A stretch of DNA of 59,411 nucleotides, from positions 1 to 59,411 of the IMG/VR virus record IMGVR_UViG_3300031659_000008; one strand, given 5' to 3'. Positions 17,510 through 46,241 of this stretch are shown here, piece by piece (position 1 is the first letter of the stretch; every line of letters begins with the position of its first letter). The notes beneath the pieces were generated by a model. That model saw nothing but the letters and a program-made list of their open reading frames with translations, did not search any database and was not told where the DNA came from. The DNA comes from a virus. The translations under genes were made by a program, and so were the position numbers.

Positions 17510-18526
17510 ATGGCTATAACTAAGATAACAAACGACTTAATAGATTTCAATATCACTAACACTACTAGTAGTTTAAAGATGCCAACAGGTAATGCTTTTT
17601 CTGGAGTAGCAGTAGATGGCATGATTCGTAATGACCAATCACAAACTGCTGGTTCTGCACAAAGCGCTATGCAACACAAGACTCCTTTAGGATGGAAGAA
17701 CTATGCGACAGCTGCTGTAGCCCCATATTCAATGGACTATTTAATTGTTGGCGGCGGAGCTGGTGGGGGAACTAATTCCACTAACAGCAACAACTCAGGC
17801 GGCGGCGGAGCTGGTGGATTTGTTGAAGTTACAGGAGGTTCAATACAGATAGGAACAGTTTATACTATTTCAATTGGAGCAGGCGGAGCGGTTTCTACTA
17901 ATGGTGGGCAATCTAAATTTCTTCCTCTTGCTACTGCAAGCGGCGGAGGTTATGGAGGAGCTGGAGCTAGCACTAGTACATTAGGTGCAGGAAGAGCAGG
18001 TGCATCAGGCGGCGGCGGCGGAGGCGCATCCACTCCTATTAATTCAGGAGGAGCAGCGACCCAACCCACGGGTCAAGGATTTGCTGGTAGTTCAAGTTAT
18101 GCAACTATCTTTCTAGCGGGCGGTTCAGGCGGCGGCGCAGGTACAGTAGGAGGACCACCACAAGATTGGGGACCAGGTCCAGGTGGTACAGGAAAAGTTT
18201 CAGCGCTATTAACCGGTTCTAATATATATTATGGCGGCGGAGGTTCAGGTGGAGCTGGTGGGGGAGGTTTTACAGCAGGCGGCGGAGCTGGCGGCGGAGG
18301 TACAGGAGGTAAATATTCTGGTTCAGTAAGCGCAACAGCAGGTTCTGACGGCTATGGAGGCGGCGGAGGCGGTGGTTATGACGCAAAAGGCGGCGGTTCA
18401 GGAATTGTTATCTTAAAAATTCCTAATGCTAGTTATTCAGGGACATATACCGGAAGCCCAACTATAAGCTATTATGGAACAAGTACAATATTAAAATTCA
18501 CGGGAGCAGGAACTTATACAGGATAA
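17510..18526 (+). CDS. Glycine-rich tail adhesin, copy 1
   Basis: This 338-residue protein has an N-terminal fibre-base module (residues 1-75). A glycine-rich domain starting DYLIVGGGAGGG covers about residues 85-310 with many GGGG and GAGG blocks. The glycine-rich sandwich resembles phage receptor-binding adhesins such as those of the T4 gp38 group. A paralogue lies at 19046-20047; sharing of GANSTNSNNSG-like segments suggests duplication. It is probably a host-range determinant. Confidence 0.75.
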   Translation: MAITKITNDLIDFNITNTTSSLKMPTGNAFSGVAVDGMIRNDQSQTAGSAQSAMQHKTPLGWKNYATAAVAPYSMDYLIVGGGAGGGTNSTNSNNSGGGGAGGFVEVTGGSIQIGTVYTISIGAGGAVSTNGGQSKFLPLATASGGGYGGAGASTSTLGAGRAGASGGGGGGASTPINSGGAATQPTGQGFAGSSSYATIFLAGGSGGGAGTVGGPPQDWGPGPGGTGKVSALLTGSNIYYGGGGSGGAGGGGFTAGGGAGGGGTGGKYSGSVSATAGSDGYGGGGGGGYDAKGGGSGIVILKIPNASYSGTYTGSPTISYYGTSTILKFTGAGTYTG

Positions 18527-19045: not shown

Positions 19046-20047
19046 ATGGCAATAACTAAAATAAACACACCAGAATTAATTGACCTCAATACTACGGGCG
19101 CTACAAGACTACCTAGTGGTAGCGTAGCTTCTAGACCGACCACAGGTCTTACTAATGGTGACTTTCGGTATAACACTGACGTTAATAAAGTAGAATATTA
19201 CGACTTAACTACAGCAACATGGTATCAGATATCTACAGAAGGAAGCGTGTATACATTAGACTATTTAGTTGTAGCAGGCGGCGGCGGTGGCGGCGCTAAT
19301 TCCACTAACAGCAACAACTCAGGTGGTGCAGGAGCAGGAGGAGTTCTTCAAGCTACAGGCGCTTCTGTAACAGGAGGAACAATTTATAACGTTTTAGTTG
19401 GAAACGGAGGTCAAGCTAAGGAAAGCGGAGGCTCTTCGGGTTTTAGTTCGTTTACTGCAACAGGCGGTGGCGGTGGCGGCGCAGGATATACATCTGGAGG
19501 ACTTGGAATAGGTAAGGCCGGGGGTTCAGGCGGCGGAGGCGGCGGAGGTACAGGGACAGCTAATTCAGGTGGGTCTGCTTCACCAGCAGGTCAAGGATAT
19601 TCGGGAGGAGCATCCAGTAACGCTATCTATCTAGCAGGTGGAGGCGGCGGAGGCGCAGGCGCAATCGGACAAAGCGGGCCTGGATATGGAGGCGGCGCAG
19701 GCGGCGCAGGAATTACATCAACAATATCAGGAACTAATCGTTCATATGCTGGTGGAGGCGGCGGCGGAGCAGGAAGTGGAGGTTCACCAGGCGGAGCGAG
19801 TTATGGCGGCGGAACTGGTGGACGATATAGCACAGGAATTACTTATGCTAATAACGGTGTATATGGCCTTGGCGGCGGCGGTGGCGGCGGTTATGGAGGC
19901 TCATCAGGTGGCTCAGGAGTTGTAGTACTTAGTATATCTAGCTCTAATTATAGCGGTATAATAACAGGAGCTCCAGAGGTGGACACTACCACGGTATCAG
20001 GGACTACAATATTAACCTACAAGGGTTCAGGAACTTATACAGGATAA
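19046..20047 (+). CDS. Glycine-rich tail adhesin, copy 2
   Basis: This 333-residue paralogue of the protein at 17510-18526 shares the base module (MAITKINTPELIDLNTTGAT, FRYNTDVNKVEYYDL) and a glycine-rich domain from about residue 73 (LDYLVVAGGGGGG). The C-terminal strands (GSGVVVLSISSSNYSGIITG, GSGTYTG) match too. Two diverged adhesins suggest alternative receptor binding or domain swapping. Confidence 0.75.
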   Translation: MAITKINTPELIDLNTTGATRLPSGSVASRPTTGLTNGDFRYNTDVNKVEYYDLTTATWYQISTEGSVYTLDYLVVAGGGGGGANSTNSNNSGGAGAGGVLQATGASVTGGTIYNVLVGNGGQAKESGGSSGFSSFTATGGGGGGAGYTSGGLGIGKAGGSGGGGGGGTGTANSGGSASPAGQGYSGGASSNAIYLAGGGGGGAGAIGQSGPGYGGGAGGAGITSTISGTNRSYAGGGGGGAGSGGSPGGASYGGGTGGRYSTGITYANNGVYGLGGGGGGGYGGSSGGSGVVVLSISSSNYSGIITGAPEVDTTTVSGTTILTYKGSGTYTG

Positions 20048-32632: not shown

Positions 32633-35600
32633 ATGGCAAATATTACCAGAAATTTTATAAGAGGACGTATGAATAAAAGCCTTGACGAAAGGCTTGTGCC
32701 TCAAGGCGAATACATTGATGCGTTAAATGTTAGATTAGGTTCAACTGAAGACTCTGAAATAGGAGCTGTAGAAAATTCAAAAGGTAATACTCTTTTAACT
32801 GCTTTATCTTATAATGGAGTTTCTTTAAGTTTAAATGCAAAATGTATAGGCGCTTTTGAAGATGGCGCTAATGAAACTTTATACTGGTTTGTTCATGACC
32901 CAAGGTTTACCGATGGATTAAGCGGTGAATTAGATTTAATACTTTCTTACAACACTAATACTAATACTTTAAAGTATCATGTAATTAGTATAAACTCTGG
33001 AAATAACTCAAACACTACTTTAGATTTTAATCTATCTTATTTAATAACAGGAATTAATTTAGTAGATAATTTATTATTTTTTACAGATAACATTAATCCT
33101 CCAAGGGTAATTGATATAACTAAAAATTATCCTGAACCTGTAAATAATTTAGACCAATTTAGTGCAGAGTCTATTTTAGTTATTAAAAGACCTCCGGTTA
33201 CATCTCCAACTATTCAGACCTTAATATTACCTGGACTAAATGAAAACTTTTTAGAAACAAGATTTATATCATTTTCTTATAGATATCAATATGCAAATGG
33301 AGAGTATTCTGCTATATCTCAATTCAGTAAACCAGCGTTTGACCCAGGTTCTTTTAATTTAAGCACTAATAGTTTTCTTAACGAAGGAATGGTAAACAGT
33401 GCTAATACCGCCATAGTTACTTATAATTCAGGTGGCCCATTAGTTGTTGCTATTGAATTGTTGTTTAAAGAAAGTACAAATACATTTATAAAAGTAATTG
33501 AAAAATTTAATAAAGAAAACTTAGGATATGCAGATGATACTGATTATAGTTTTACTTTTTCTGACAGCAAAATATTTACGTTATTACCCGAATCTGAAAT
33601 ATTAAGACTTTACGATAACGTTCCAAGAACAGCCAAATCACAAACCCTAATGGGGAATAGATTGGTTTATGGTAACTATTTAGAGGGATATAATTTAGTA
33701 GATAGGTTTAACAATAATTTAAAATTAGAATATGTTGCTAGTTTATTATCTACAAGTATTGGATTAGAACAACTTTCAACTAGCACTGGAGTAGGTGTTT
33801 ACAATGCTCCTATAGGAATTGGAATTACTGATATAGAAAATGCTGTTGTTTATGTTGATTTAACAGGTATTACTTTAAGTGCAGGAAGCGCAATTGATTT
33901 GTCTTATACTTTTACTCATAACTCTTGGTCTAATGCTTTAGACCTACCTAGCTCAAACACTTTAAATGTAGGTGTTTCTTTTGAATACATTCTTCCTACT
34001 GACTTTTCTAATGTATATGATTTAGCTACAAGTACTGATTTTATAGAAAAAGTAGGTACAGTTGCAAACATTCAAACTGTTCCTAATGCATCTCTTGGAG
34101 TTACATTGACAGATTTTACTAATGCTAACATACCTCAAAACTTAGGCGGTACTCATGAAAAAACTATGAGTGGCGTAAATCAATTTCTTGGACCTTTAGA
34201 AATAATATCTACTCCTGGAAGCAATGCTATAGGATTTCAAACTGTAGGTATGAATTTTTCAAATACTAGTACGGGAATAGGCGCTATTGAATTTTATAGC
34301 ATTATTCAGCATGAAGCTCGTTTTCAGAAAATTTCTAATCCCGGAAGTTTACATAGTAATAGAGGTTATGAGGTAGGATTGGTTTATATGGATGAATTTA
34401 ATCGTTCAACTACAGCTTTAGTTAGTCCTCAAAATACCATACAAGTTCCTTGTCTAAATTCTGTTAATAGAAATGAATTAAAAGTAACTATACCTCCTCA
34501 ACAATTAGCTCCAAACTGGGCTACTAGATATAAATTTGTTTTAAAACCTAGTGAAGATACTTACGAAACTATTTTTGTTACAACTTTTTTTAATGACCCT
34601 ACTAATAATTCAGTTTATTATTTATTAGAAGGAGATAACGCTGGAAAAGTTGAAGAAGGTGATAGGTTAATAGTTAAAAGAGATAGCGATGGAGCTACTC
34701 AAACTTGTCCAGTTGCTACTGTTTTAGAAAAAAAAGCACAGTCTTCAAACTTTTTAACTATTCCAACTGGAGTAAATGATGCTGATGGTAATCCTATAAA
34801 CACTCCTATTCCTGGAGGAGTTTATATGAAAATTAATCCTAGTAATTTTAATAGCACTTTTGAAGATAATGCAACTGTAGATTTACCTTACAGTCAAGTT
34901 CGCTCTCCTAATGGAAGTGACAACTATCCTTTGCTAAAATATAATTTAAGTTTAGTGGGAGCTGACCCTAATATTTCAGGCTCAACATATAATAATTATA
35001 CTATTCCAGAAGGAAGTAGAATTACCATAGACATAAATCAATCAAGAAACGGAACATCAACCTGTGATACAAGGATTTATAATTTAAAATTAACTCTTAC
35101 CTCTTCTAAAACATATCTTCCTAGCGGAAATGTTCCTGCTATTTATAATTGGTTTATAGGAGATAATATAGCTGAAAGATTAAATGATGGAACTCAAACT
35201 GTTATTAATAATACAGGTTCAACACCAGGGAATGCCGCTATAACAAATGAAGTTTCTACAGCAAGTTTTTTACCCGGATATCCGGGTTATAACGAAGGGC
35301 CTGCAGACCCAGGAAGGGTAAACACATCTTTTTCATTTAGTACTAACTATTATTTCTTTTATAGAAACACTACTACTAATCAAGTTTTTTTACTCATAAC
35401 AGGAACAAGTTCTTGTGGTAGCAGTAACGATAAAAGGTCATTTGTAAATGCTCAGATAAGTATTCTTAGAGCAGGAGATGGATTAGTTTTTGAAACACAA
35501 CCCTTAGATTCAGCCCCCGATATATGGTATGAAAATGACTTATCATTTCCTATTAATAATTTAGGACATCATCAAGGTAATTTACAAAATCAATCAGCCG

Positions 35601-38600
35601 GTATATCGGCTATATGCAACACCGGATTTTTTAATTGTTTTTCTTTTGGTAATGGTGTTGAGAGTTATAAAATAAGAGATGCCATTAATGGTAAGCCTTT
35701 AGGATTTGGAAGTAGAGTTACTACTACAACTAATACTTTATTTAAAGAAGCTAATAGATTTGCTGACCTTACTTATAGTGGAGTTTATAATGACGAAACA
35801 AATACTAATAAGTTAAATGAATTTAATTTAGGTCTTCTTAATTTTAAACCACTAGAAGATACTTTTGGACCTATTCAAAAATTATTTGCAAGAGAAACGG
35901 ATATTCTTGTATTACAAGAAGATAAGATATCTTATGTTTTAACTGGTGTAAACTTATTAAGTGATGCAGTTGGCGGTGGAGTAATTACTGCTGTTCCTCA
36001 AGTTTTAGGAAAACAAATAGCTAGAATAGAAGAATTTGGAATAAGCAATAATCCTGAAAGCTTTGCCGTATGGGGAAGAACTAAATATTTTACTGACGCA
36101 AAAAGAGGAGCTGTTATAAGCCTTACCGGAGACCGTGGTCAATCTGAACAATTACAAGTTATTTCAGAAGCTGGAATGAGAGGTTGGTTTAGAGATTTAT
36201 TTATTGATAGCTTTAATACTCAAAAAATAGGTGGCTTTGACCCTTATATGAATGAATATGTTTTGTCTTCTAACATTTATGGACAGCCTGCTGTTCCTGA
36301 AGTTTGTATAAATTGTGGTATAGAAAGAGACTTAACACTTACTCCAAACATACCTACAAATTATTGCGTAGATGTAACTGGATTTGTAGGAGTTGTTAAT
36401 GTAAATTACGTTATACCTATAGAGGGTACGGATGACATATCTTCTGAATCGTCATCAACTAATTTAGTAGTCACACAATTAAACAGCGATGATATAGTAA
36501 CAGAAAGTGCTTTTACTGGAACTGGTTATACTATTTCTATTATTTACAATGGAATTACTTATACCACAGGAGAAGTATTTTCTAGTGGAACATTATCGTT
36601 TAACAAAGACGTAGTTAGTGTTACTGAAGCTCAAGTTTCGGTTTCTACCTCATCACTTACTCCTGATAATATTTCAGTAACTGTTGAGTGTCCTTTGTCA
36701 GAAATTTTAAATGTATATAACATAGCCATAACAAGTAATAACGAAGCAACTCAAACTATTACAAATGCATATAGATGGAGTGATGGTAATTTTGATTCTA
36801 CTACAAAATCAGAAAAAGTTGTATTTTCTTCTAGTTCCGTAAATCCTATTGTATCTCAATATAGTTTATTTGGAGGTCCTCAAGGAGCAGGTTTAATTCC
36901 TGCAAATGGAGCTAATGTTACAATAATAAGCAGAAAAACAAGCACTGATAATTATGTGTTTAATACTGCTTCTAATAAATTAAAATATTTAAGGACTTCT
37001 ACTCTTTATCAAAACACAGGAGCTCAAATTCAATCTTTACTTTCAGTTGCTCAAGACGCTTCTCCTATAACTACAGGTCAAATTCCAGGGGATTTTGAAG
37101 CTAGTTTTTTAATGCCAAGCACAGGAACTAACCTATATCTAATATGGGATTACAGAAAATCAACTGCAAAATCATTATGTTTTTCTGATGTTTCATCATC
37201 TGATGCTTGTAATGGATGTGTGCCTGTTCCAGTGCCTGTGCCTGTTTCTCCAGTTCCAGTCGCAACTGTATATACATGGCAAATATCATTTTTAGGAACT
37301 ATTGCTAGTCCAGCAAATTGTCCAATTACAAATGCAACTTTATATTCAATTTCATCTTCTTTTGCCACTACGTTTGTTAATAGTACAGTATTTTATATTG
37401 ATGCTGCTTTAACAACAGTTTATGCAGGCGGAAATACATATTCCGGTGTAAGAGAACCTAATACAGGTGGTGGAGTTTCATCAGCAATATTTAGATTTAC
37501 AAGTTTAGGAACTGTTTCAAATATAGACACATCTGGAGTTTGTTCAGTAGCACCTATTCCAGTGCCAGTGGTAATACCCGTTCCTATTCCTATTCCAGTG
37601 CCGGTTGTAGCGCCAGTAATAACACCAGTGCCTGTGCCGATAACACCAGTGCCGATACCTACACCTACACCAGTTGCACCTATACCAACTCCTATTCCAG
37701 TGCCTGTGCCTGTTTCTTTTTTCTATTATACTTTAAGACAATGTACAACCCTTCAGCTTTTTGATGTTGGGGTTTCTGGTTCTTTAACTTTAGGGACTGC
37801 ATTAAATTACGCTGGACAATGTTGGGAAGTATATGCAACTTCTCTTTCAGGAACTTCAATAACTCCTACATCATATCATACTAATTGTAGCACATGTTTA
37901 ACACCTACACCAGTTGTGCCTGTTCCTGTGCCTGTTAGTCCTACGCCTATTCCAGTGCCAGTAGTACCAAGCCCTATTCCAGTGCCAGTAGTAACGCCTG
38001 TAGTACCTATTCCAGTGCCTATTCCTGCGCCTGTAGCACCTATTCCAGTGCCTATTCCTGCGCCAGTAGTAACACCTGTAGCACCTATTCCAGTGCCAGT
38101 AGTAACGCCTGTAGTACCTATTCCAGTGCCTATTCCTGCGCCTGTAGCACCTATTCCAGTGCCTATTCCTGCGCCAGTAGTAACACCTGTAGCACCTATT
38201 CCAGTGCCTATTCCAGTGCCTGTAGTACCTATTCCAGTGCCTATTCCTGCGCCAGTAGTACCAATACCTGCACCTATAGTACCAATACCTGCGCCTATAG
38301 TACCAATACCTGCGCCTATAGTGCCTATTCCAGTGCCAGTTCCACAGCCAGCGCCAATAGTTCCTATTCCAGTGCCTGTAGTGCCTGTGCCTGTGCCTGT
38401 AGTACTTCCTACTCCAGTTCCAGTGTTTACTCCTGTACCCGTTCCAGCGCCAGTTGCTGCTGTATATGCCTCTTGGTATATAAATAATTGGGAAGGTCAA
38501 GGCGTTACCGTAGGTGGCAGTGGTATTGCAACCTGTTGTAGCTATAATACTTCTAGTAGTTTACCAGTTTATTTATGGTACGGTGGATATGGTACAAACG

Positions 38601-39136
38601 GAATTAATATTAAGACAGTTGAAGATATAAATACTGCAATTTCTCTTAGCAAACAGATAATAGTAACAAAAACTAACGCGCAGCCTCAAGCATATGATAT
38701 ATTTGATGGAAGAGACCCAACTACTAATGTTTCATTGTTATACGGAATTTCAAGAAGTGCTGATAATGGAGCACCTGGTATTATAGTTGGAATTAATGAG
38801 GGCTTTACCACTACTCCTGCATATTTACAAGATTACGTTTCTTGTTTACAATCATTTTCAATGACTACTTACACTACAAGTTGGACCAATACCACTGATG
38901 CCTGTAGTAGTGGACCTTCAACGGGAACTTCTCAGTATTTCCACAGCGGAAGTACTGCGTGTTTAGCGAACTCTAATGTTGTTTATTTAAATACTGATAA
39001 ATACCAAACTTTTCCAGATGTAATACCAACCACTTCTAAAGTATGGTATCAAGGCTCTTCGTGTGGAAGTGGAAATGGATTAGCAATAGAAATAAACAAT
39101 AGTAACGGTCAAGCATCAATAACTTCTTGCACTTAA
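32633..39136 (+). CDS. Giant tail stabilisation protein with Pro-Val-rich modular C-terminus
   Basis: This 2167-residue protein starts with the signature of podovirus tail stabilisation (P22 gp10-like/crAss-like) proteins: TRNFIRGRMNKSLDERLVPQ and EYIDALNVRLGSTEDSEIGA. The first roughly 1500 residues form this body. The C-terminal third is modular. It contains Pro-Val linkers (residues about 1529-1540, 1638-1692 and 1756-1941), Cys-containing beta domains between them (near 1600 and 1700-1755), and a final 225-residue domain. The extension is far longer than in relatives and may project as a receptor-binding spike. Possible prolyl hydroxylation is suggested by the enzymes at 39.8-43.6 kb. Confidence 0.8.
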   Translation: MANITRNFIRGRMNKSLDERLVPQGEYIDALNVRLGSTEDSEIGAVENSKGNTLLTALSYNGVSLSLNAKCIGAFEDGANETLYWFVHDPRFTDGLSGELDLILSYNTNTNTLKYHVISINSGNNSNTTLDFNLSYLITGINLVDNLLFFTDNINPPRVIDITKNYPEPVNNLDQFSAESILVIKRPPVTSPTIQTLILPGLNENFLETRFISFSYRYQYANGEYSAISQFSKPAFDPGSFNLSTNSFLNEGMVNSANTAIVTYNSGGPLVVAIELLFKESTNTFIKVIEKFNKENLGYADDTDYSFTFSDSKIFTLLPESEILRLYDNVPRTAKSQTLMGNRLVYGNYLEGYNLVDRFNNNLKLEYVASLLSTSIGLEQLSTSTGVGVYNAPIGIGITDIENAVVYVDLTGITLSAGSAIDLSYTFTHNSWSNALDLPSSNTLNVGVSFEYILPTDFSNVYDLATSTDFIEKVGTVANIQTVPNASLGVTLTDFTNANIPQNLGGTHEKTMSGVNQFLGPLEIISTPGSNAIGFQTVGMNFSNTSTGIGAIEFYSIIQHEARFQKISNPGSLHSNRGYEVGLVYMDEFNRSTTALVSPQNTIQVPCLNSVNRNELKVTIPPQQLAPNWATRYKFVLKPSEDTYETIFVTTFFNDPTNNSVYYLLEGDNAGKVEEGDRLIVKRDSDGATQTCPVATVLEKKAQSSNFLTIPTGVNDADGNPINTPIPGGVYMKINPSNFNSTFEDNATVDLPYSQVRSPNGSDNYPLLKYNLSLVGADPNISGSTYNNYTIPEGSRITIDINQSRNGTSTCDTRIYNLKLTLTSSKTYLPSGNVPAIYNWFIGDNIAERLNDGTQTVINNTGSTPGNAAITNEVSTASFLPGYPGYNEGPADPGRVNTSFSFSTNYYFFYRNTTTNQVFLLITGTSSCGSSNDKRSFVNAQISILRAGDGLVFETQPLDSAPDIWYENDLSFPINNLGHHQGNLQNQSAGISAICNTGFFNCFSFGNGVESYKIRDAINGKPLGFGSRVTTTTNTLFKEANRFADLTYSGVYNDETNTNKLNEFNLGLLNFKPLEDTFGPIQKLFARETDILVLQEDKISYVLTGVNLLSDAVGGGVITAVPQVLGKQIARIEEFGISNNPESFAVWGRTKYFTDAKRGAVISLTGDRGQSEQLQVISEAGMRGWFRDLFIDSFNTQKIGGFDPYMNEYVLSSNIYGQPAVPEVCINCGIERDLTLTPNIPTNYCVDVTGFVGVVNVNYVIPIEGTDDISSESSSTNLVVTQLNSDDIVTESAFTGTGYTISIIYNGITYTTGEVFSSGTLSFNKDVVSVTEAQVSVSTSSLTPDNISVTVECPLSEILNVYNIAITSNNEATQTITNAYRWSDGNFDSTTKSEKVVFSSSSVNPIVSQYSLFGGPQGAGLIPANGANVTIISRKTSTDNYVFNTASNKLKYLRTSTLYQNTGAQIQSLLSVAQDASPITTGQIPGDFEASFLMPSTGTNLYLIWDYRKSTAKSLCFSDVSSSDACNGCVPVPVPVPVSPVPVATVYTWQISFLGTIASPANCPITNATLYSISSSFATTFVNSTVFYIDAALTTVYAGGNTYSGVREPNTGGGVSSAIFRFTSLGTVSNIDTSGVCSVAPIPVPVVIPVPIPIPVPVVAPVITPVPVPITPVPIPTPTPVAPIPTPIPVPVPVSFFYYTLRQCTTLQLFDVGVSGSLTLGTALNYAGQCWEVYATSLSGTSITPTSYHTNCSTCLTPTPVVPVPVPVSPTPIPVPVVPSPIPVPVVTPVVPIPVPIPAPVAPIPVPIPAPVVTPVAPIPVPVVTPVVPIPVPIPAPVAPIPVPIPAPVVTPVAPIPVPIPVPVVPIPVPIPAPVVPIPAPIVPIPAPIVPIPAPIVPIPVPVPQPAPIVPIPVPVVPVPVPVVLPTPVPVFTPVPVPAPVAAVYASWYINNWEGQGVTVGGSGIATCCSYNTSSSLPVYLWYGGYGTNGINIKTVEDINTAISLSKQIIVTKTNAQPQAYDIFDGRDPTTNVSLLYGISRSADNGAPGIIVGINEGFTTTPAYLQDYVSCLQSFSMTTYTTSWTNTTDACSSGPSTGTSQYFHSGSTACLANSNVVYLNTDKYQTFPDVIPTTSKVWYQGSSCGSGNGLAIEINNSNGQASITSCT
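37898..38455 (+). repeat. Pro-Val codon repeats (CCTATTCCAGTGCCT-type)
   Basis: About 560 bases consist of in-frame CCN-GTN/ATN/GCN codons, read as PVP, IPV and APV units. Long identical copies occur, for example the 37990-38060 and 38110-38180 stretches. The repeat is prone to recombination or slippage in multiples of three. Shorter Pro-Val tracts lie at 37219-37260, 37547-37710, 39315-39560 and 44167-44430. Confidence 0.85.
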
Positions 39137-39146
39137 AAATAAAAAA

Positions 39147-39785
39147 ATGGCAACTAGAAATACATATTATTTTGATACAGCAAGTTTTGCAAGTGCAACA
39201 ACTATTTATACTAATGCTGATTTAAGTGCAATTGCTCCTAATGGATTTTATTCAGATAACGTAGAAGTTAGACAGCAAACATCAGGAGTTTTATTGGCTG
39301 CACAATCTTGTGTGACACCTACTCCAGTGCCAACTCCAGTAGCGCCAGTACCAGTTCCAGTTCCGGCAGCTCCTGTGCCTACGCCTACGCCTACGCCTAC
39401 AGCGCCTACAGCGCCACCACCTGTAGTAGCGCCAGTTGTAGCGCCGGTTGTAGCACCGGTTAATATACCGGCTGCGCCAGTAGCGCCTCCAACAACACCT
39501 CCAGTTTTTGTACCTGTAGTAGTGCCTTTAGCACCTCCAGTTGCAGCACCGGTTGTAGCACCTGTAGTAACAGGGTACTTTTATAATGTAAAACAATGTG
39601 ACACTAGTCAAATTGATGTTTTAAAAGGAAATCAATTTTTCAGTAACGGAACTGTTGTACAATACACTCAAGCTGGTGTAACTATTTGCGGAACAATACA
39701 ACAAGCAGTTTCTCAACCTTCTAGCAAAGCGGGTCTTATTAATTTTAGTGTTAATAGCTGTACTGATTTTAGATGTAGTCAATAA
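39147..39785 (+). CDS. Pro-Val-rich tail protein with Cys beta domain
   Basis: This 212-residue protein has an N-terminal domain (YYFDTASFASATTIYTNADL, SGVLLAAQSC) like that near residue 1600 of the giant tail protein. A Pro/Val/Ala/Thr linker (residues about 56-143) follows. The C-terminal 70-residue domain has two or three Cys (FYNVKQCDTSQIDVLKGNQF and SCTDFRCSQ) and is shared with the protein at 43621-44643. It is probably a tail spike or accessory fibre and a likely substrate of the neighbouring enzymes. Confidence 0.7.
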   Translation: MATRNTYYFDTASFASATTIYTNADLSAIAPNGFYSDNVEVRQQTSGVLLAAQSCVTPTPVPTPVAPVPVPVPAAPVPTPTPTPTAPTAPPPVVAPVVAPVVAPVNIPAAPVAPPTTPPVFVPVVVPLAPPVAAPVVAPVVTGYFYNVKQCDTSQIDVLKGNQFFSNGTVVQYTQAGVTICGTIQQAVSQPSSKAGLINFSVNSCTDFRCSQ

Positions 39786-39818
39786 TTTTTATTAATTTTA
39801 CTTTAATTAAATAAAATT

Positions 39819-40421
39819 ATGGTTTTAATAAAAGAAAATAGAGACTATGTTCCTTATAATCCACAGCCTCCTGAATTAATAACAAGAAGTACCAAAAAAG
39901 GATTTCAAGTTTTAGATGTTCCTCCAGCTATATATAGCATATTGTCTAATTTTTATGACCGTTCTAAATTACAAGAAGAAACTTATGAAGGAAAAGAACA
40001 TTATGATGGAGGTAAAAAAAGTTTTGTTCAAGATATAAATCAACATCCTGAGTTTATTAATTTTATAAAAACAAAAATGTTACGATATCACGAGGAATGG
40101 TGTGGTAGAGAATTAACTCCAGCTGTTGTTTATGGCGTTAGAAGCTACACTAATGATACTGTTTTTAATAGTCATTTTGATAGACAAGATACTCATCACA
40201 TAGCATCAAGTATTACTCTAGGAAAAGATGCTCCTTGGAATTTAAACATTCAAGACCATGACAAACAATGGTGGGGAGTAGATGTAGAGCCTGGACAAAT
40301 GATTATGTTTGAATCAGGTTGTTGCATTCACGGAAGATTAGACGCTTATCAAGGTACTTACTTTGATAATCTATATACTCATTTTACTTTTAAAGAACCA
40401 TTTACCCCCTATGAAGGATAA
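39819..40421 (+). CDS. 2-oxoglutarate/Fe(II) dioxygenase, prolyl 4-hydroxylase-like
   Basis: This 200-residue protein has the P4H-type double-stranded helix. Iron ligands would be His119 and Asp121 (NSHFDRQ) and His171 (CCIHGR); VEPGQMIMFESG is the usual strand before the distal His. Residues 185-192 (LYTHFTFK) form the last strand. It would hydroxylate a protein side chain, consuming 2-oxoglutarate and O2. Lying directly after a Pro-Val-rich tail gene, prolines are the obvious substrates, though this is inferred. Confidence 0.75.
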   Translation: MVLIKENRDYVPYNPQPPELITRSTKKGFQVLDVPPAIYSILSNFYDRSKLQEETYEGKEHYDGGKKSFVQDINQHPEFINFIKTKMLRYHEEWCGRELTPAVVYGVRSYTNDTVFNSHFDRQDTHHIASSITLGKDAPWNLNIQDHDKQWWGVDVEPGQMIMFESGCCIHGRLDAYQGTYFDNLYTHFTFKEPFTPYEG

Positions 40422-40527
40422 AATATATATATACGAATCTCCTGATAATGGTAAAACTATTTATAGGCGTGAATTTTTAAATTATTCAACCCCTAGGGAA
40501 TTAATTCAGTCATCTAAAAGTGAATAA
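40411..40527 (+). CDS. 38-residue conserved marine-phage peptide
   Basis: ATG 40411 to TAA 40527. MKDKIYIYESPDNGKTIYRR, then a short helix. The IYIYESPDxGKTxYRR pattern is familiar from T4-like cyanophage and pelagic phage genomes, without known function. It overlaps the dioxygenase end and the glycosyltransferase start. Confidence 0.6.
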   Translation: MKDKIYIYESPDNGKTIYRREFLNYSTPRELIQSSKSE

Positions 40528-41584
40528 TAAATACGTTTCTTTTGATTGGTGGTGGGGAGGATGGAATAATATAAGAATGTGCTATGAAATGATAGGTGCT
40601 ATATCTTATATTTCAGGAAGAAAAATTATACTTCCGCCAAATGGTTATTGTTTGTTTTTATCTGAGCATCAAGAAAAAAATTCTTTTTTTAATATGTGGG
40701 ATTTTTTAGATAAGAAATCCTTTACATCTAATTTTGATTGTGTTGAGTATGAAGACACTTCTTTAATAAAATACTCATCTGATATACAATATTACGAAAA
40801 TATAGTTGACGATATTAAGTGCATTCTTTTTGATAATGATAAATATATAAATTGGGGGCCTCAAAACTTTATAAATAGAGGATTAATTTATCAAGGAATA
40901 GAAGACATAAATCATTTTAATGAGTTTAATTCTGACAATAGAGAGCTTTATGATATTATGTGTGATGATGAAATTATACATTTTCCTAGAAATTTATTAG
41001 GGCATTTTGGATACCACGTATATCCTCCTAATGATAAAGCGAGAAGAATAATACAGCAAAAAGTAAGAGACGGTATAAGGTTTAAAGAAAAGTTTTATAT
41101 AAAGGCAAAAGAATTAATGCCCGGGGATTATGATGCTATTCATGTAAGAAGAGGTGATTTTAAATACACTCAAACAACCTGGACTGAAGACCTTTATAAA
41201 AATTTAGAAAATCTTTTAGACGGAAGAGTCAGAAAATCAGTACCTTTATACATTGCGACTGATGAAACAGATTTAAGTATGTTTGATTTTTTAAAAGAAA
41301 AGTACAATATATTGTTTTTAAAAGATTTAAAAGAAAAAAGTTATAATGAAGACGTGGTTTTAGACACTCTTATTTGCTGTAATGCACATAATTTTTTTGG
41401 TTCAAGAATGTCTACTTACACCGACTATATAAATATATTAAGAGGTTATAATAATAAAATTGATAATCACAGAAAGTCGTTGAATTTTGAGAGAAAAGAA
41501 ATTAAATACAATAAATATCCTTGGGAGGTAGAGCCTTATAATTGGCAAGACTTGTGGGGTGAATTATATTATGGCAAAATTTAA
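40520..41584 (+). CDS. O-fucosyltransferase-like glycosyltransferase
   Basis: This 354-residue protein begins at GTG 40520, overlapping the 38-residue gene. It contains an N-terminal GGWNNIRMCYEMIGAISYIS (Gly-rich donor-site loop and helix) and IHVRRGDFKY at about residue 210. The HxRRxD motif is typical of GDP-fucose O- and alpha-1,6-fucosyltransferases. SRMSTYTDYINILRG at the end matches the FxGSxxSTF-like segment. It would attach fucose or a similar sugar to a protein or glycan. Overlaps suggest one unit with the neighbouring modification genes. Confidence 0.65.
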   Translation: MNNKYVSFDWWWGGWNNIRMCYEMIGAISYISGRKIILPPNGYCLFLSEHQEKNSFFNMWDFLDKKSFTSNFDCVEYEDTSLIKYSSDIQYYENIVDDIKCILFDNDKYINWGPQNFINRGLIYQGIEDINHFNEFNSDNRELYDIMCDDEIIHFPRNLLGHFGYHVYPPNDKARRIIQQKVRDGIRFKEKFYIKAKELMPGDYDAIHVRRGDFKYTQTTWTEDLYKNLENLLDGRVRKSVPLYIATDETDLSMFDFLKEKYNILFLKDLKEKSYNEDVVLDTLICCNAHNFFGSRMSTYTDYINILRGYNNKIDNHRKSLNFERKEIKYNKYPWEVEPYNWQDLWGELYYGKI

Positions 41585-43034
41585 TCTAGGAGTACACGGG
41601 TCTCACAATGCATCAATAGCAATATCTTATGGTGGGGATATATTAGAAGTTGTAGAATTAGAAAGATGGGTTCAAATAAAAAACGCTGCTTTTTTTTATT
41701 ATTTTCCTATAGAAAATCCATTAGAAATTTTAAGTGAAATTTTAAGCTACTTTGAATTTAAATACAATGCAAAAGAATATGATTTTGCAATGGTAAACTC
41801 TTGGCCTCAAGAGCATAATAGTCATTTAAAAGCCACTAACGTAGTTTATGTCCCGCATCATTTAGCTCATGCTTGTAACGTTATGTATCAATCTAATGCA
41901 AAAAAATCTTTAATAGTTTCTTTTGATGGAGGTTCAGACGATGGTCATTTCAATATTTACTTAGGGGATAAGCCCAATACACCAGTTTTAATACATCAAT
42001 CTCAAAAAGATTTATGTGTTCCTTACGCTGCTTTAGGTCATTATATGAATGACATTAAAAAAGAACCAGATATTTTTAAGGGTAATTTAACTAATGCTGG
42101 TAAAGCAATGGGGTTATCTTCTTATGGAAAAAGAGACGATGTTCTTTTTGATTATGTAAATAAACTTTATGATAAAAGCGATACAAATTCTGTAAACAAA
42201 GCTCATGAAAATTGGAGTGAAATTTTTTGTTCATGCAATCAAACTGGTGACAAAGCAAAAGATTTAGCTTATGCAAATCAATATGTATTTGAAAAGAATT
42301 TTGCAGATATAGCACTCCCTTTTATATTTAAAAATTTAGACAGAGAGTTGCAATTTGCGGGCGGCGGTGCAATGAACATTTTAAATAACACCACCTATGA
42401 AGCTTTTGTTTCTCCAAATGCTGATGATAGGGGAATTGCGTTGGGTTGTTTATTAAGCTTATTAAAACCAGAACAGACTGTTGATAGCACTTATTTAGGT
42501 TCTGACCCTTATGATGACATTCCTGATAAAAAAGAAATTAGCGTCTTAGAGGTTGCTAATATGTTAAGTGAGGGTAGTATACTTGGACTGATACAAGGTA
42601 GAGGAGAACACGGCGCAAGGTCATTAGGCAATAGGTCTATTCTGTGCTTACCACAAGAAGGAGTAAAGGAAAAATTAAACTCAGAAGTAAAAAACAGAGA
42701 ATGGTTTAGACCTTTTGCGGCAGTTTGCAGAGAAGAAGATGCTCATAAATATTTTAAAGACTACGGAAAGCATAGATGGATGACTCATAATGTTAAAGTT
42801 TTAGATAACAAGTTACCCGGAATTACTCATATAGATGGAACTTGTAGATTGCAAACAGTAACTAAAGAACAAAACCTTTTTTTATGGAATATTTTAGGGA
42901 TACATCCTGTTATTCTAAACACTTCTTTTAACATACAAGGAAAGCCTATACTTAACACCTACAGAGAGGCGTTATGGATGAAAGAAAATACAGGAATAAA
43001 CGAAGTAATAACCAATAAATATATATTATCATGA
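41571..43034 (+). CDS. NodU/CmcH-family O-carbamoyltransferase
   Basis: I choose ATG 41571 (MAKFNLGVHGSHNASI; a GTG at 41559 is in frame), giving 487 residues. Family motifs are all present: HNAS near the start, PHHLAHA at about 95, SFDGGSDDGH, GKAMGLSSYGK, GRGEHGARSLGNRSIL at about 343, WFRPFA and NTSFN near 450. These enzymes make carbamoyl-AMP from carbamoyl phosphate and transfer carbamoyl to a sugar hydroxyl. Here the target is probably the sugar added by the upstream transferase. Confidence 0.85.
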   Translation: MAKFNLGVHGSHNASIAISYGGDILEVVELERWVQIKNAAFFYYFPIENPLEILSEILSYFEFKYNAKEYDFAMVNSWPQEHNSHLKATNVVYVPHHLAHACNVMYQSNAKKSLIVSFDGGSDDGHFNIYLGDKPNTPVLIHQSQKDLCVPYAALGHYMNDIKKEPDIFKGNLTNAGKAMGLSSYGKRDDVLFDYVNKLYDKSDTNSVNKAHENWSEIFCSCNQTGDKAKDLAYANQYVFEKNFADIALPFIFKNLDRELQFAGGGAMNILNNTTYEAFVSPNADDRGIALGCLLSLLKPEQTVDSTYLGSDPYDDIPDKKEISVLEVANMLSEGSILGLIQGRGEHGARSLGNRSILCLPQEGVKEKLNSEVKNREWFRPFAAVCREEDAHKYFKDYGKHRWMTHNVKVLDNKLPGITHIDGTCRLQTVTKEQNLFLWNILGIHPVILNTSFNIQGKPILNTYREALWMKENTGINEVITNKYILS

Positions 43035-43573
43035 TAAAAAAATTAAACTTAAATTATGACTGGGGTTATTTTTTACCTCCAATGCAAGACTACTCAATTC
43101 ATAAAGGTACTTGTCTAGCACATCAACTTGATGAGCTTACAGATATACATAAGGAGTACGGTCTTGCCGATTCATACACTAAAGACAACACTGTCATTCA
43201 ACAGCTATGGTATACAAAAGACCAAGTTGATTTTAAAGACCTTGGAAAACAAACCGGAATGGAAGTGGTTACAGTATCTACTATACTACAGCCCCCAGGA
43301 AATACTATTGCACTACATAGAGACACATTTTTTCAAATAAAAAAAAGATTTCCAGACGATAAAAGAGTAAAAGTTAGGGCTAATGTTTATTTAGAAGAAT
43401 GGAAGGTTGGGCATATGTTGCAGTATAAATCTGAAGAAGATAATATATGGAAAACATCTGACAACTGGAAAGCTGGAGAAGGTTACATGTGGGATTCTAA
43501 GCCTCTTCACTTATCAGCAAACGCAGGGATGAAAGACAAGTTTACACTTCAAGTATCAGGTTTTTTGCTTTAA
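43031..43573 (+). CDS. Second Fe(II)/2OG dioxygenase-like enzyme
   Basis: This 180-residue protein has a jelly-roll with HRD (His96, Asp98), a distal PLH (His160) and KFTLQVSG, in which a Lys (about 170) could bind 2-oxoglutarate. The arrangement resembles aspartyl/asparaginyl beta-hydroxylases and related oxygenases. It overlaps the carbamoyltransferase stop (ATGA), placing it in the same modification unit. The target may be a second tail residue or the sugar. Confidence 0.65.
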   Translation: MIKKLNLNYDWGYFLPPMQDYSIHKGTCLAHQLDELTDIHKEYGLADSYTKDNTVIQQLWYTKDQVDFKDLGKQTGMEVVTVSTILQPPGNTIALHRDTFFQIKKRFPDDKRVKVRANVYLEEWKVGHMLQYKSEEDNIWKTSDNWKAGEGYMWDSKPLHLSANAGMKDKFTLQVSGFLL

Positions 43574-43595
43574 AATATCTAAGCAATTAAATTCG

Positions 43596-43603
43596 TAAAT
43601 TTG
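43596..43603 (+). promoter_or_regulatory. Bacteroidetes-type promoter -7 element (TAAATTTG)
   Basis: TAnnTTTG match 18 bases before the ATG at 43621. It would start a transcript with the second Pro-Val tail protein. Confidence 0.6.
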
Positions 43604-43620
43604 TAGATAAAATTAATCAT

Positions 43621-44643
43621 ATGAATGGCTGGAAATTTGTTGCAGGCTCTTTCACAATACCTACTTTACCCCCCCAAATAGGGTATCATCAGGGAAGTTT
43701 ATTTGGATGTCCTAATTCATTTACTCCATTTGGTACAGGTGTAAGCCCTACAGTTGCTACTCAGGAATTACCCGGAATAGGTTGTGCTTTTAATATATTT
43801 AGTCAAGGTCTACAGACAAGAGGCGTTGCGTTAAAGGGAAGCGGAACTCAAAGCGATATAGGACTAACTCAATTTAGCACTAACGGGGGTATAATTACCG
43901 CAAACTTTATGGGGATTAGTACCTTAAGTAATATAGGTACAGGTTCTTTATCGGGAGTAATTACAGGAAGCGATGGTAGTTCTGGAACATGGTCTGTTGA
44001 TTATAGTAATGTTATAGATGGAATATTAGGGCCTGTTGAGTTTCAAGCTTATATTGATGACAGCGGAAACGGCAGTACTTATTCTCCCGAATCTAGTGGT
44101 ACTGTTACTTTAAACGGATTAAGCTTAGTTAGTGGCGTTACTTATGAATTAATTGTAGGCGCTTCTGTGCCTGTTGCTCCAGTACCCGCACCTACTTCAG
44201 GGATAGTTGACTATTGTTTATCCCCCACCAATAGCGTGGTAGTTCCAGTTGCTCCTACACCAGTGCCTGTGGTAGTACCTGTTTCATCGCCGGTAGTAAT
44301 ACCTGCGCCTGTGGTAGTACCTGTTATTGTACCAGTAGTAGTGCCATCAGTAGTACCAGTAGTGCCGACAGCTCCTCCTCCTGTAATAGTTCCAGTAAAT
44401 GCTCCTATTAATGTTCCTGTTCAGGCATCAACATATTATATAGCAATAGGCTGTAGTGATAATATAGCAGTATACCTTCAAGGAGGGGTTTCAACACCTT
44501 ACTCCGTAGGAAATGTTGTACAATATACTTTTCAGGGAGTTACTTATTGCGCTACCATTTCACAGGTTGGAGTTGGAACTGGCGGCGGCGGAAAAATTAA
44601 TCAAACTGTATCAAGTTGCAACGACTTTACATGTAGTCAATAA
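43621..44643 (+). CDS. Pro-Val-rich tail protein with Cys beta domain, second copy
   Basis: This 340-residue protein has a distinct N-terminal beta domain of about 180 residues (NGWKFVAGSFTIPTLPPQIG, TVTLNGLSLVSGVTYELIVG). A Pro/Val linker of about 80 residues (183-267) follows. The C-terminal domain (TYYIAIGCSDNIAVYLQGGV, VQYTFQGVTYCATI, SCNDFTCSQ) closely parallels that of the protein at 39147. Together they bracket the modification genes. It is probably another spike or fibre component. Confidence 0.7.
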   Translation: MNGWKFVAGSFTIPTLPPQIGYHQGSLFGCPNSFTPFGTGVSPTVATQELPGIGCAFNIFSQGLQTRGVALKGSGTQSDIGLTQFSTNGGIITANFMGISTLSNIGTGSLSGVITGSDGSSGTWSVDYSNVIDGILGPVEFQAYIDDSGNGSTYSPESSGTVTLNGLSLVSGVTYELIVGASVPVAPVPAPTSGIVDYCLSPTNSVVVPVAPTPVPVVVPVSSPVVIPAPVVVPVIVPVVVPSVVPVVPTAPPPVIVPVNAPINVPVQASTYYIAIGCSDNIAVYLQGGVSTPYSVGNVVQYTFQGVTYCATISQVGVGTGGGGKINQTVSSCNDFTCSQ

Positions 44644-44653
44644 TAAATAAAAA

Positions 44654-45808
44654 ATGGCCCAACAATATATATTTAACGGAGCATACGGTGTGTACGGAAC
44701 AAGCACAGGGGTATTTGTAATAAACAATATTCCTTCACAACATCCAATTGCTTTTTTAAATTCAGGCAAAGAATCTTTAATACAATACCAAGGGCAATTT
44801 AATGCCGGGTCAAAAACAGCTTTAGACGGAAATACTTATAATTTCTTTTATGGAGATGTTACTCTTTCGGTAAGCGGTGATTATGGGACGATAAGTTATC
44901 AGTGTTTCTATCATGGCTATATGGGAGGTCAAAATAACTTGGTGTATGATTCAGTATCTTGTCCACCTCAAACCCCTTCCGTAGAGCCATTACCTGGAGA
45001 CCCTGTAGAAAATTATACCTTATCGTATAGTGATGGCGCAAAAGGTTGGCCTTCTTTTTATTCGTTTTTCCCTGACTTTATGATGGGTATGAATAATTAT
45101 TTTTATTCTTTTAAGGGAGGAGCTCTTTACAGGCATAACACAAATTCATTAAGAAACAATTATTATGGGGTGCAATATAACTCACAGATAACTTCCGTGT
45201 TTAATGAAGCTGCTTTAGAAACTAAATTATTTAAAACTATTAACTTAGAGTCTGACACATCATGGTCTGCAACTTTAGATAGTGACATTCAAACAGGAGC
45301 TACTGTTGATTACAGTTGGTTTGAGCAAAAAGAAGGTTCTTGGTTTGCTTATGTTAGAAACAATGGAACAAGCCCCGCAAGCGCCTCAGAGTATCCTATG
45401 CGTTCAGTAAGTGGTATTGCTAGAAGTTCTAGTGTTAATGCAAATGGAAACTTTACTACTATAAACTTTTCTATTAATCCATTAATTGAAATAGGAAACA
45501 TTTTGAGTGTAGGCGACATGCTTTATTATTCTTTGCCTTCGTACACTACCGTTCAGCTTGGAGGTCAAGTAAGCGCAATAAATATAGACATAGTAAATGG
45601 TATAAACAATATAGTTATTAATACTTCTGTAGCCAACGCAGTGACCCCTATACCTATACAGGATGCTTTTATAATGTTTATAAAAAATCAACAAGTCGAA
45701 TCAAATGGTTTGTTAGGTCATTACTGTTTGTTTACTCTTACAAATTCTGATTCAACACCAACTGAATTATTCGCAGTGGAATCGGAAGTAATGAAAAGCA
45801 ATCCTTAA
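44654..45808 (+). CDS. Virion tail protein with cupredoxin-like N-terminus
   Basis: This 384-residue protein starts MAQQYIFNGAYGVYGTSTGV. Residues about 70-100 (LSVSGDYGTISYQCFYHGYM) resemble the YxCxxHxxM segment in marine-phage structural proteins, similar to a cupredoxin copper loop. The C-terminal 250 residues (YFYSFKGGALYRHNTNSLRN, VYDSV) look like crAss-like tail proteins. It follows the spike genes, so it is probably part of the tail. Confidence 0.6.
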   Translation: MAQQYIFNGAYGVYGTSTGVFVINNIPSQHPIAFLNSGKESLIQYQGQFNAGSKTALDGNTYNFFYGDVTLSVSGDYGTISYQCFYHGYMGGQNNLVYDSVSCPPQTPSVEPLPGDPVENYTLSYSDGAKGWPSFYSFFPDFMMGMNNYFYSFKGGALYRHNTNSLRNNYYGVQYNSQITSVFNEAALETKLFKTINLESDTSWSATLDSDIQTGATVDYSWFEQKEGSWFAYVRNNGTSPASASEYPMRSVSGIARSSSVNANGNFTTINFSINPLIEIGNILSVGDMLYYSLPSYTTVQLGGQVSAINIDIVNGINNIVINTSVANAVTPIPIQDAFIMFIKNQQVESNGLLGHYCLFTLTNSDSTPTELFAVESEVMKSNP

Positions 45809-45830: not shown

Positions 45831-46241
45831 ATGAAATTAAATGTTAGACCACTCGTAGAAGATGACTATCAAGACATCTTAGTAGGTTGGTGGAAAGATT
45901 GGAAATGGGAAGCACCATTAAAAGATTTTCTTCCAGATGACGGCAAAGGTGGGCTAATAGTTTATGACAATGAAACCCCTGTTTGTGCAGGATTTATATA
46001 TATGACAAATTCAAAGGTAGCTTGGGTAGATTGGATTATTTCTAACAAACAATATAGAGATAGAGAAGATAGACAGCAAGCTATTTCTTTTTTAATTAAA
46101 ACACTTACTGATACAGTAAAAACTACAGGCTGCAAATTCATATATGCTTTAATAAAGCACGATGGCTTAATTAAGACCTATGAAGACGAAGGCTATATGG
46201 CTGGAGACCAGTACAATAAAGAAATGATTAAAGCAATATAA
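45831..46241 (+). CDS. GNAT-family acetyltransferase-like protein
   Basis: This 136-residue protein has GNAT layout: MKLNVRPLVEDDYQDILVGW at the start, VCAGFIYMTNSKVAWVDWII as the central strands, then a helix (QQAISFLIKTLTDTVKTTGC) and a final strand-helix (YEDEGYMAGD). The acetyl-CoA loop (Q/RxxGxG) is degenerate. Similar proteins precede internal virion genes in T7-like and marine phages, so a structural or modifying role is possible. Confidence 0.65.
   Translation: MKLNVRPLVEDDYQDILVGWWKDWKWEAPLKDFLPDDGKGGLIVYDNETPVCAGFIYMTNSKVAWVDWIISNKQYRDREDRQQAISFLIKTLTDTVKTTGCKFIYALIKHDGLIKTYEDEGYMAGDQYNKEMIKAI

Follow-up and report, generated by a model that had tools for sequence, protein, structure and literature searches.

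Gene organization of the muzzle operon

The window analysed here, the whole stretch of 59,411 nucleotides of viral DNA (IMGVR_UViG_3300031659_000008), carries a cassette of four enzyme genes between genes for Pro-rich tail proteins (Table 1). A check of the open reading frames (ORFs) gave the same coordinates as the original prediction and one orientation for all the genes. The overlaps said to chain the genes for the O-fucosyltransferase (O-FucT)-family enzyme, the carbamoyltransferase and H4 were found to be 26 bp and 4 bp, and the large Pro-rich ORF was confirmed just upstream of the cassette. Muzzle (tail-tip) genes of a crAss-related marine phage were identified on both sides, namely the 2167-aa ORF and the 384-aa ORF. 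Since the flanking 384-aa ORF represents the crAssvirus muzzle C-terminal domain, the cassette was placed inside the muzzle operon. Both this MUZ C-terminal domain and the structural N-terminal part were present, as in a crassvirus muzzle.

Table 1. Genes and Pro-rich segments of the muzzle operon in the window
Feature	Position	Strand	Basis or remark
Muzzle/tail-nozzle protein, 2167 aa	32633..39136	+	phrog_14478 virion structural protein 3.9e-228; proposed substrate
Muzzle protein Pro-rich linkers	37508..38503	+	102 Pro in 309 aa; small Cys-containing domain in between
Small tail protein, 212 aa	39147..39785	+	Pro-rich linker 39261-39605
H1, 2OG-Fe(II) dioxygenase, proposed prolyl hydroxylase	39819..40421	+	AlphaFold model, Foldseek, conservation
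O-FucT-family glycosyltransferase (HVRRGD), proposed first-sugar enzyme	40520..41584	+	PF10250 6.7e-10
NodU/NolO-type O-carbamoyltransferase, proposed sugar decoration	41559..43034	+	PF16861 2e-43, PF02543 5.5e-10; phrog_1601 9.3e-94
H4, second HxD...H protein, perhaps sugar tailoring	43031..43573	+	H96, D98, H160 invariant
Tail protein, 340 aa	43621..44643	+	Pro-rich linker 44161-44451; C-terminal Cys domain
Crassvirus muzzle C-terminal domain protein, 384 aa, end of muzzle operon	44654..45808	+	PF25729 4.9e-18, phrog_38031 6.1e-90

The 2167-aa protein consists of a conserved muzzle part (residues 1-1512) and V/I/A/T-Pro linkers (residues 1626-1713 and 1737-1957), and its relatives in Cellulophaga phages carry structural annotation. 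The linkers of the 212-aa and 340-aa proteins contain 32 Pro in 115 aa and 24 in 97 aa, respectively. In all three proteins nearly every linker Pro is an isolated V/I/A/T-Pro and Pro-Pro is very scarce. The description of the product as an extensin-like coat was imprecise in this respect; the Pro pattern is non-contiguous and therefore closer to arabinogalactan proteins (AGPs) than to extensins. The C-terminal Cys domain assigned to both small proteins is visible, and both end in CSQ, but the whole-protein BLASTP match was weak (E 0.013). The N-terminal domain of the 212-aa protein occurs without a linker in relatives lacking the cassette. Short Pro runs at three other loci (L143, L156, L167) were rejected as X-Pro linkers, being GCTDP-type repeats or PPPP runs.

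Cassette enzymes and their relatives

H1 had been predicted to be a P4H-like dioxygenase. The metal-binding triad and the fold of the predicted model agreed with this assignment, but no Pfam dioxygenase was matched, and a Pfam profile search detected no PF13640 anywhere in the window record. The AlphaFold model of H1 was confident (pLDDT 85.5). Its first Foldseek match in the PDB was the prolyl-4-hydroxylase 4j25 (E 1.3e-6, TM about 0.6), with 4iw3, 6t8m and PHD2 also among the top matches; other 2OG oxygenases were matched as well. The predicted HxD...H motif was conserved in the alignments of both the H1 and H4 families. The facial iron triad of H1 is formed by H119, D121 and H171, the Asp being replaced by Glu in one of 19 aligned sequences. 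At the usual 2OG-binding position, about 9-12 residues past the distal His, the alignment showed no Lys or Arg in H1 and an aromatic residue at the P4H position. Most family members have Arg two residues beyond this position, where the window protein has Asp, and R173 is invariant. As judged from the model, H1 is a candidate prolyl hydroxylase, its predicted fold being closest to prolyl hydroxylases.

In most relatives, H1 was found fused to a genuine prolyl-4-hydroxylase domain (PF13640) on its N-terminal side. All eight PDB matches of this domain were prolyl 4-hydroxylases (best 2.3e-18); by profile search, the canonical domain was absent from the window. A scan of bacterial genomes found no relative of H1, and hence no link to a host or prophage. 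The PHROG label 'ferrochelatase' for H1 relatives was considered a misannotation, because a gene so labelled in Synechococcus phage S-SCSM1 is PF13640 at 1.9e-17. Erwinia phage Y3 and Salmonella phage Sen-NF also carry canonical P4H-like genes; these were set aside, as their neighbourhoods were unrelated and no tail genes were seen there.

The usual acceptors of O-FucT-family enzymes are Ser/Thr residues in small Cys-rich domains, and we know of none acting on hydroxyproline (Hyp). The assignment of the second enzyme to this family held at 39.5 bits against a cut-off of 31.5. Residues H208, R210 and D213 of its HxR..D motif were invariant in the family alignment, and the best PDB match of the family profile was POFUT2 (2.2e-11). 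No GDP_Man_Dehyd-type gene was detected in the window, and therefore a fucose donor would have to be supplied by the host. The third enzyme was confirmed as a NodU-type carbamoyltransferase, both Pfam domains being above cut-off. Fucose addition and carbamoylation are putative steps. H4, said to be a second dioxygenase, is a candidate by its invariant motif; its model was poor (pLDDT 45), a sequence search gave no PDB hit, and a homologue matched PhyH weakly (E 0.0036, below cut-off). H4 was not specific to the cassette, its homologues being common in marine phages that lack the cassette (48 of 73 new loci). With its family mostly outside the cassette and often beside radical-SAM genes, H4 was not adopted as a proline hydroxylase.

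Both HPAT of plants and GT60, the family of the Skp1 GlcNAc-transferase, have known protein-Hyp acceptors. Genes after H1 in the relatives often belonged to these two families; the same slot of the window is occupied by O-FucT. HPAT (PF23452) was found in relatives only, above cut-off in 3 of 12 H1-bearing genomes and below it at E<1e-4 in three more (best per-protein match 1.3e-6). GT60 (PF11397), also in relatives only, was above cut-off in all nine cassette genomes, with E down to 7e-59. Neither family was detected in the 14 control genomes. For O-FucT, 35 of 37 new loci carried H1 or the P4H domain.

These neighbours bear on the possibility that proline hydroxylation serves stiffness or conformation and that the glycan is attached elsewhere, to Ser/Thr or to residues of the small Cys domains, as two independent tail modifications. 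The usual acceptors of O-FucT enzymes fit such an arrangement, small Cys-rich domains being located between the linkers. So do L103 and L062, which keep glycosyltransferase-type neighbours and Thr-rich or Pro-Thr linkers without the hydroxylase; L062 and L088 are both Pro-Thr-rich, with GT60 present and the hydroxylase absent. However, the neighbour in relatives is HPAT or GT60, and O-FucT accompanies the hydroxylase almost throughout, so that separate modifications appear unlikely.

Of the 91 loci with sufficient sequence downstream, 87 had a glycosyltransferase from any of four families no more than 5 kb away from the hydroxylase; some of these loci had been found via the glycosyltransferase itself. 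This count argues against linkers that are hydroxylated yet unglycosylated, with the sugar enzymes directed to another virion or host molecule. In favour of such an outcome, PBCV-1 offers a precedent for a virus-encoded P4H with viral peptide substrates, as summarized where PMC9301287 cites Eriksson 1999; we regard this outcome as very improbable for the present cassette.

Pro-rich virion genes near the hydroxylase

A Pro-rich ORF was found within 8 kb of the hydroxylase in 88 of 109 distinct viral loci carrying the hydroxylase family, the remaining 21 being without such a neighbour. Among loci with full flanks, the association was observed for 51 of 65 with the hydroxylase versus 16 of 174 without it. 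The family-wide H1 scan gave a Pro-rich ORF nearby in 64 of 70 loci, and the nearest one was the gene directly upstream of H1 in 65 of 90. Within the muzzle relatives, window included, H1 was present in 17 of 18 Pro-rich loci, and none of 39 Pro-poor loci had any cassette gene. The expected co-occurrence of the enzymes with Pro-rich tail genes was therefore seen in most relatives, but a minority of contigs, mostly fragments, keep the enzymes without such a gene, a pattern that counts against the prediction. In three contigs of 63-122 kb (L304, L308, L309), no Pro-rich ORF was detected anywhere in the available sequence.

In the clade of the window, the Pro/H1 pair corresponds to a single change on the tree, and therefore the loci of this clade are not independent; an independent-pairs test of the clade-1 tree had just one pair to compare and thus no power. 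In a second, distant muzzle clade, H1 was found only in the contigs of L101, L102 and L104, all three Pro-rich. The enzymes of L089, on the contig of L102, were 72-85% identical to those of the window although the muzzle was barely alignable, which suggests that cassette and linkers were transferred together. When backbones were clustered by three shared genes outside the cassette, H1 was associated with Pro-rich genes in four or more unrelated ones; one of these backbones has a tape-measure protein, and in another the pair adjoins a tail fibre gene; clustering by a single shared gene merged nearly all of them.

A chance neighbourhood, in which morons occupy a permissive site beside low-complexity linkers with no functional link, would agree with the restriction of the pair to one clade within the lineage of the window. 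It is hardly credible, however, against the recurrence in unrelated backbones and the enrichment at loci with full flanks. The enzymes might instead act on polysaccharide of the cell surface, host-made or phage-directed, for instance to mask receptors against superinfection, the dioxygenases acting on sugars and the adjacency to Pro-rich genes being incidental. The authors of the S-SCSM1 study assigned the same genes to synthesis and modification of the cell wall (PMC9602691), and in that phage they are located within a large nucleotide-sugar/glycosyltransferase cluster; carbamoyltransferases of the window type are also widespread in marine phages. In contrast, the H1 family adjoins Pro-rich virion genes in several backbones and occurs in fusion with a genuine prolyl hydroxylase domain, HPAT and GT60 have protein-Hyp acceptors, and the cassette genes overlap inside the muzzle operon. 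Polysaccharide modification is thus quite unlikely.

Proposed pathway and comparison with known systems

We propose, with a probability of roughly 0.7 and on sequence evidence, that the muzzle operon carries a tail-modification cassette by which linkers at the tail tip are O-glycosylated on Hyp, with sugars that can be exchanged. H1 would oxidise prolines in the X-Pro linkers, both in the muzzle protein and in the two small proteins that accompany it, the O-FucT-family enzyme would place a sugar on the new proline hydroxyl, the carbamoyltransferase would decorate the attached sugar, and further tailoring may be the task of H4. The tail tip would then bear stiff stalks of polyproline-II type that carry glycans. 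That proline is the substrate and Hyp the point of attachment is putative, and so are the sugar identity, the order of steps and a role in host contact or protection. Hydroxylation of tail prolines followed by O-glycosylation, as originally predicted, is supported by the co-occurrence, the fused P4H domain and the presence of HPAT or GT60 in the slot; its specifics, namely fucose, carbamoylation of that sugar and action of H4 on proline, are putative. Against the proposal stand the single change in the window's clade, the hydroxylase loci without a Pro-rich gene, the lack of the canonical P4H domain in the window and of the usual Lys/Arg in H1, the usual acceptors of O-FucT enzymes, and the Pro-Thr-rich loci L062 and L088 with GT60 but without hydroxylase.

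For tailed phages in general, we lean slightly toward a modular system of Hyp O-glycosylation of virion linkers, in which an invariant prolyl hydroxylase is combined with interchangeable HPAT, GT60, GT32 or O-FucT and tailoring enzymes. This system would be mobile between unrelated phages, and parallel or ancestral to Hyp glycosylation in plants and protists. Among open-licence papers, no report of a phage Hyp-glycan was found.

Prolyl 4-hydroxylase is among the most widespread auxiliary genes of Baltic Sea water viruses; according to a recent survey, its viral use 'remains cryptic' (PMC9301287). The proposed answer is that X-Pro tail linkers are the substrate, followed by Hyp glycosylation. 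If true, phages would possess HPAT- and GT60-type hydroxyproline glycosyltransferases and thus a small prokaryotic enzyme set for making Hyp glycoproteins, and the repeated, horizontally moving module of linkers plus enzymes on phage tails would be accounted for.

Hyp-linked glycosylation is known chemistry in plants and amoebae. Plant Hyp-rich glycoproteins (P4H and HPAT; AGP and extensin) resemble the present system in X-Pro repeats, P4H and the HPAT-family enzymes of the phage relatives, but they are made in the plant secretory pathway, whereas phage tail proteins are made in the bacterial cytoplasm and carry mostly V/I/A/T-Pro. The P4H of PBCV-1 differs in belonging to a eukaryotic algal virus and, to our knowledge, no Hyp glycosyltransferase cassette has been described with it. 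Skp1 of Dictyostelium and Toxoplasma is hydroxylated on proline by PhyA and then modified by Gnt1 (GT60) (PMC11570480). This order of prolyl hydroxylase and Hyp glycosyltransferase is shared, PF11397 being present in many phage relatives, but Skp1 is a cytosolic eukaryotic protein modified at one proline, and the window slot holds O-FucT. What the window shares with the crassvirus muzzle gp44 (PMC10172136) is a muzzle protein with the C-terminal domain, but in the window these parts are encoded by separate genes, between which Pro linkers and enzymes are found. In the cultured cyanophage S-SCSM1, the gp255-gp260 cluster combines an H1-like 2OG oxygenase with an O-FucT (33%) and a carbamoyltransferase (41%). 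The genome also encodes X-Pro-rich virion proteins, which adds to the case for the proposal, but their genes lie apart from this cluster, which the authors read as cell wall modification. Since S-SCSM1 is a cultured carrier with a virion proteome (PMC9602691), the proposal is readily testable.

Muzzle operon carrying the cassette

The window represents the entire virus record of 59,411 bases, and the ORFs called in it agreed with the layout of the original prediction. The 384-aa ORF located directly 3' of the cassette region encodes the C-terminal domain of a crAssvirus muzzle (PF25729, 4.9e-18), and residues 6-1512 of the 2167-aa ORF on the 5' side match a virion structural PHROG, its relatives being structural proteins in Cellulophaga, Flavobacterium and related phages. 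The cassette is thus placed inside the tail-tip muzzle operon. In phi13:2, a crassvirus outgroup (PMC10172136), the homologue of the 2167-aa protein is annotated as virion structural and is followed by no cassette-type enzymes. In MW202828, the nearest named relative, the muzzle gene, a small protein gene and the muzzle C-terminal gene are contiguous, with neither Pro linkers nor enzymes. The Pro linkers of the window follow a V/I/A/T-Pro pattern with Pro-Pro nearly absent, which we take to be closer to plant arabinogalactan-type than to extensin-type sequences; the earlier term 'extensin-like' for the coat is imprecise.

Coordinates of features in the window and at loci on other viral contigs (L numbers)
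Sequence	Coordinates	Feature	Observation
Window	11049-12671	Phage-encoded chaperonin	Cpn60_TCP1, 1.2e-53
Window	17510-18526, 19046-20047	Two neighbouring glycine-rich-domain proteins	PF21722; possible fibres
Window	32633-39136	2167-aa muzzle protein	
Window	39819-40421	H1, putative prolyl hydroxylase	Group labelled 'ferrochelatase' by PHROG/record
Window	40520-41584	O-fucosyltransferase (O-FucT)	
Window	41559-43034	Carbamoyltransferase	
Window	43031-43573	H4, HxD...H protein	
Window	45831-46241	Small acetyltransferase-like gene	Adjoins muzzle C-terminal gene 3'; kept in most relatives
L002	14409-14993	Dioxygenase of H1 group	Same label
L009	10001-10909	Radical-SAM/SPASM protein between hydroxylase and GT60 gene	Also L023, L052, L033 (one cassette type)
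L103	10001-14380	Muzzle with Thr-rich, mucin-like linker, and glycosyltransferase-like neighbour	Hydroxylase absent
L231	4368-7477	632-aa protein with O-FucT domain, plus a separate entry for an FkbM methyltransferase, both adjoining P4H-H1	Unusual setting close to replication genes; no Pro-rich tail gene on contig

Identity of the cassette enzymes

The O-FucT gene matched PF10250 over the cut-off and both Pfam domains were found in the carbamoyltransferase gene, as expected for the O-fucosyltransferase-like and NodU-type enzymes predicted. The assignment of H1 as a prolyl 4-hydroxylase (P4H)-like dioxygenase stood in part. Its HxD...H triad was seen in an alignment of 19 homologues, and the predicted model (18 homologues, pLDDT 85.5) gave Pseudomonas prolyl-4-hydroxylase, Dictyostelium PHD and human PHD2 as best PDB matches (E 1.3e-6 to 1e-5, TM about 0.6); H1 has no Pfam match, and the usual 2OG-binding Lys/Arg is missing from its typical position. 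Because further 2OG oxygenases match as well, the model shows a 2OG-oxygenase fold and only suggests a prolyl substrate. The 'ferrochelatase' label given to this group seems to be an error: in S-SCSM1, the gene that bears it is a PF13640 oxygenase. For H4, the HxD...H motif is retained, and no fold support was obtained for the predicted second dioxygenase. H4 is not cassette-specific, as 48 of 73 new H4 loci carry neither H1 nor a Pro-rich gene. In L342, L345, L362, L365 and similar loci of marine phages, its homologues (about 55-64%) are clustered with radical-SAM genes and genes lacking characterisation, and have no relation to Pro-rich linkers.

In most relatives, H1 forms the C-terminal half of a protein of which the N-terminal half is a true P4H (PF13640; all PDB matches P4H). 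Since L181 and L208 combine a single-domain H1 with HPAT and a Pro-rich gene, gene content argues that H1 may serve without the canonical half, in the window included. The genes after the hydroxylase differ among loci, and are HPAT, PF11397, GT32 or, as in the window, O-FucT. HPAT is the plant hydroxyproline O-arabinosyltransferase family, and PF11397 (GT60) is the family of the Skp1-hydroxyproline GlcNAc transferase; neither was found in 14 control genomes. Wherever sequence upstream of HPAT is available (29 loci), H1 adjoins it, and a hydroxylase domain was present in 35 of 37 new O-FucT loci.

Association of hydroxylase with proline-rich linkers

With the muzzle protein as query, 80 relatives were recovered from viral contigs, and distinct loci spanning both muzzle N- and C-terminal genes were counted, the window included. 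X-Pro-rich coding sequence lies between the muzzle genes in 18 loci, 17 of them with H1, while none of the 39 loci without such sequence carries any cassette gene. The (PxP)n coding pattern was absent from 16 Pro-poor muzzle records (two muzzle clades). On the muzzle-core tree the Pro-rich/H1 loci form a single clade (one change, support 100), and therefore the pairing in this lineage is one event, kept across deep divergence.

The association extends to other backbones. L089 (same contig as L102) carries all four enzymes, 72-85% identical to those of the window, next to a muzzle hardly alignable with that of the window. Among 80 loci found with the L089-type muzzle, H1 is present only on the contigs of L101, L102 and L104, all three Pro-rich. 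L103, whose muzzle shares 85% identity with that of L089, has a Thr-rich linker and no hydroxylase, as expected if hydroxylation is needed only for linkers without hydroxyl groups. Its neighbouring gene looks, in our reading, like a glycosyltransferase (no Pfam match), and the locus represents a natural swap. In L143, L156 and L167, GCTDP-type Cys repeats or poly-Pro runs replace X-Pro linkers in muzzle proteins or their neighbours.

The H1-family scan added 70 loci, of which 64 have a Pro-rich ORF no more than 8 kb away. When all sets are combined (90 loci), the Pro-rich gene closest to H1 directly precedes it in 65. H1 carriers represent at least four backbones, defined as having fewer than three genes in common apart from the cassette; one of them encodes a tape-measure protein, and in another the cassette adjoins a tail fibre gene. 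Overall, a Pro-rich gene accompanies the hydroxylase at 88 of the 109 distinct loci, and the co-occurrence asked about beforehand is seen in most relatives, in the window lineage as one event. Where each flank extends for 4 kb or more, Pro-rich genes accompany 51/65 hydroxylase loci versus 16/174 without hydroxylase (Fisher p 5e-25, relatedness ignored). Of these 16, seven are apparently contigs ending before the cassette, and three are of the Pro-Thr/GT60 type of L062, which lacks the hydroxylase.

Enzymes without a Pro-rich protein, named beforehand as contrary evidence, do occur in some contigs. On L304, L308 and L309 (90, 122 and 63 kb), P4H-H1 is accompanied by HPAT and GT60, with (PxP)n absent from the contig sequence available. 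The cyanophage-like L278-L290 except L289 carry O-FucT and H1, mostly with carbamoyltransferase, and no Pro-rich gene in these partial contigs. The complete cyanophage S-SCSM1, of the same arrangement, encodes X-Pro-rich virion proteins (gp019 and gp155) elsewhere in its genome, indicating that distance does not exclude a link between enzymes and Pro.

Proposed modification and known systems

In the proposed pathway, X-Pro linkers would be hydroxylated by H1, a sugar would be added by the O-FucT enzyme, and this sugar would then be carbamoylated. Proline as the probable H1 substrate is well supported by the locus comparison, and the enzyme families occupying the same slot favour hydroxyproline as the likely attachment site; we infer fucose as the sugar, the carbamoyl group on it and any role of H4. 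No GDP-mannose-dehydratase-family gene was found in the window, and hence any GDP-sugar would need host supply.

In the open-licence literature, no study was found to propose that phage virions carry hydroxyproline glycosylation, in line with the novelty claimed for this combination. Capsid glycosylation has been inferred for mycobacteriophages (PMC11256854), and the homologous genes of S-SCSM1 were classed by its authors as cell wall modification (PMC9602691). PBCV-1 is cited in PMC9301287 as encoding a P4H. We rate the chemistry as already known, the setting as new and the set of sugar enzymes as modular.
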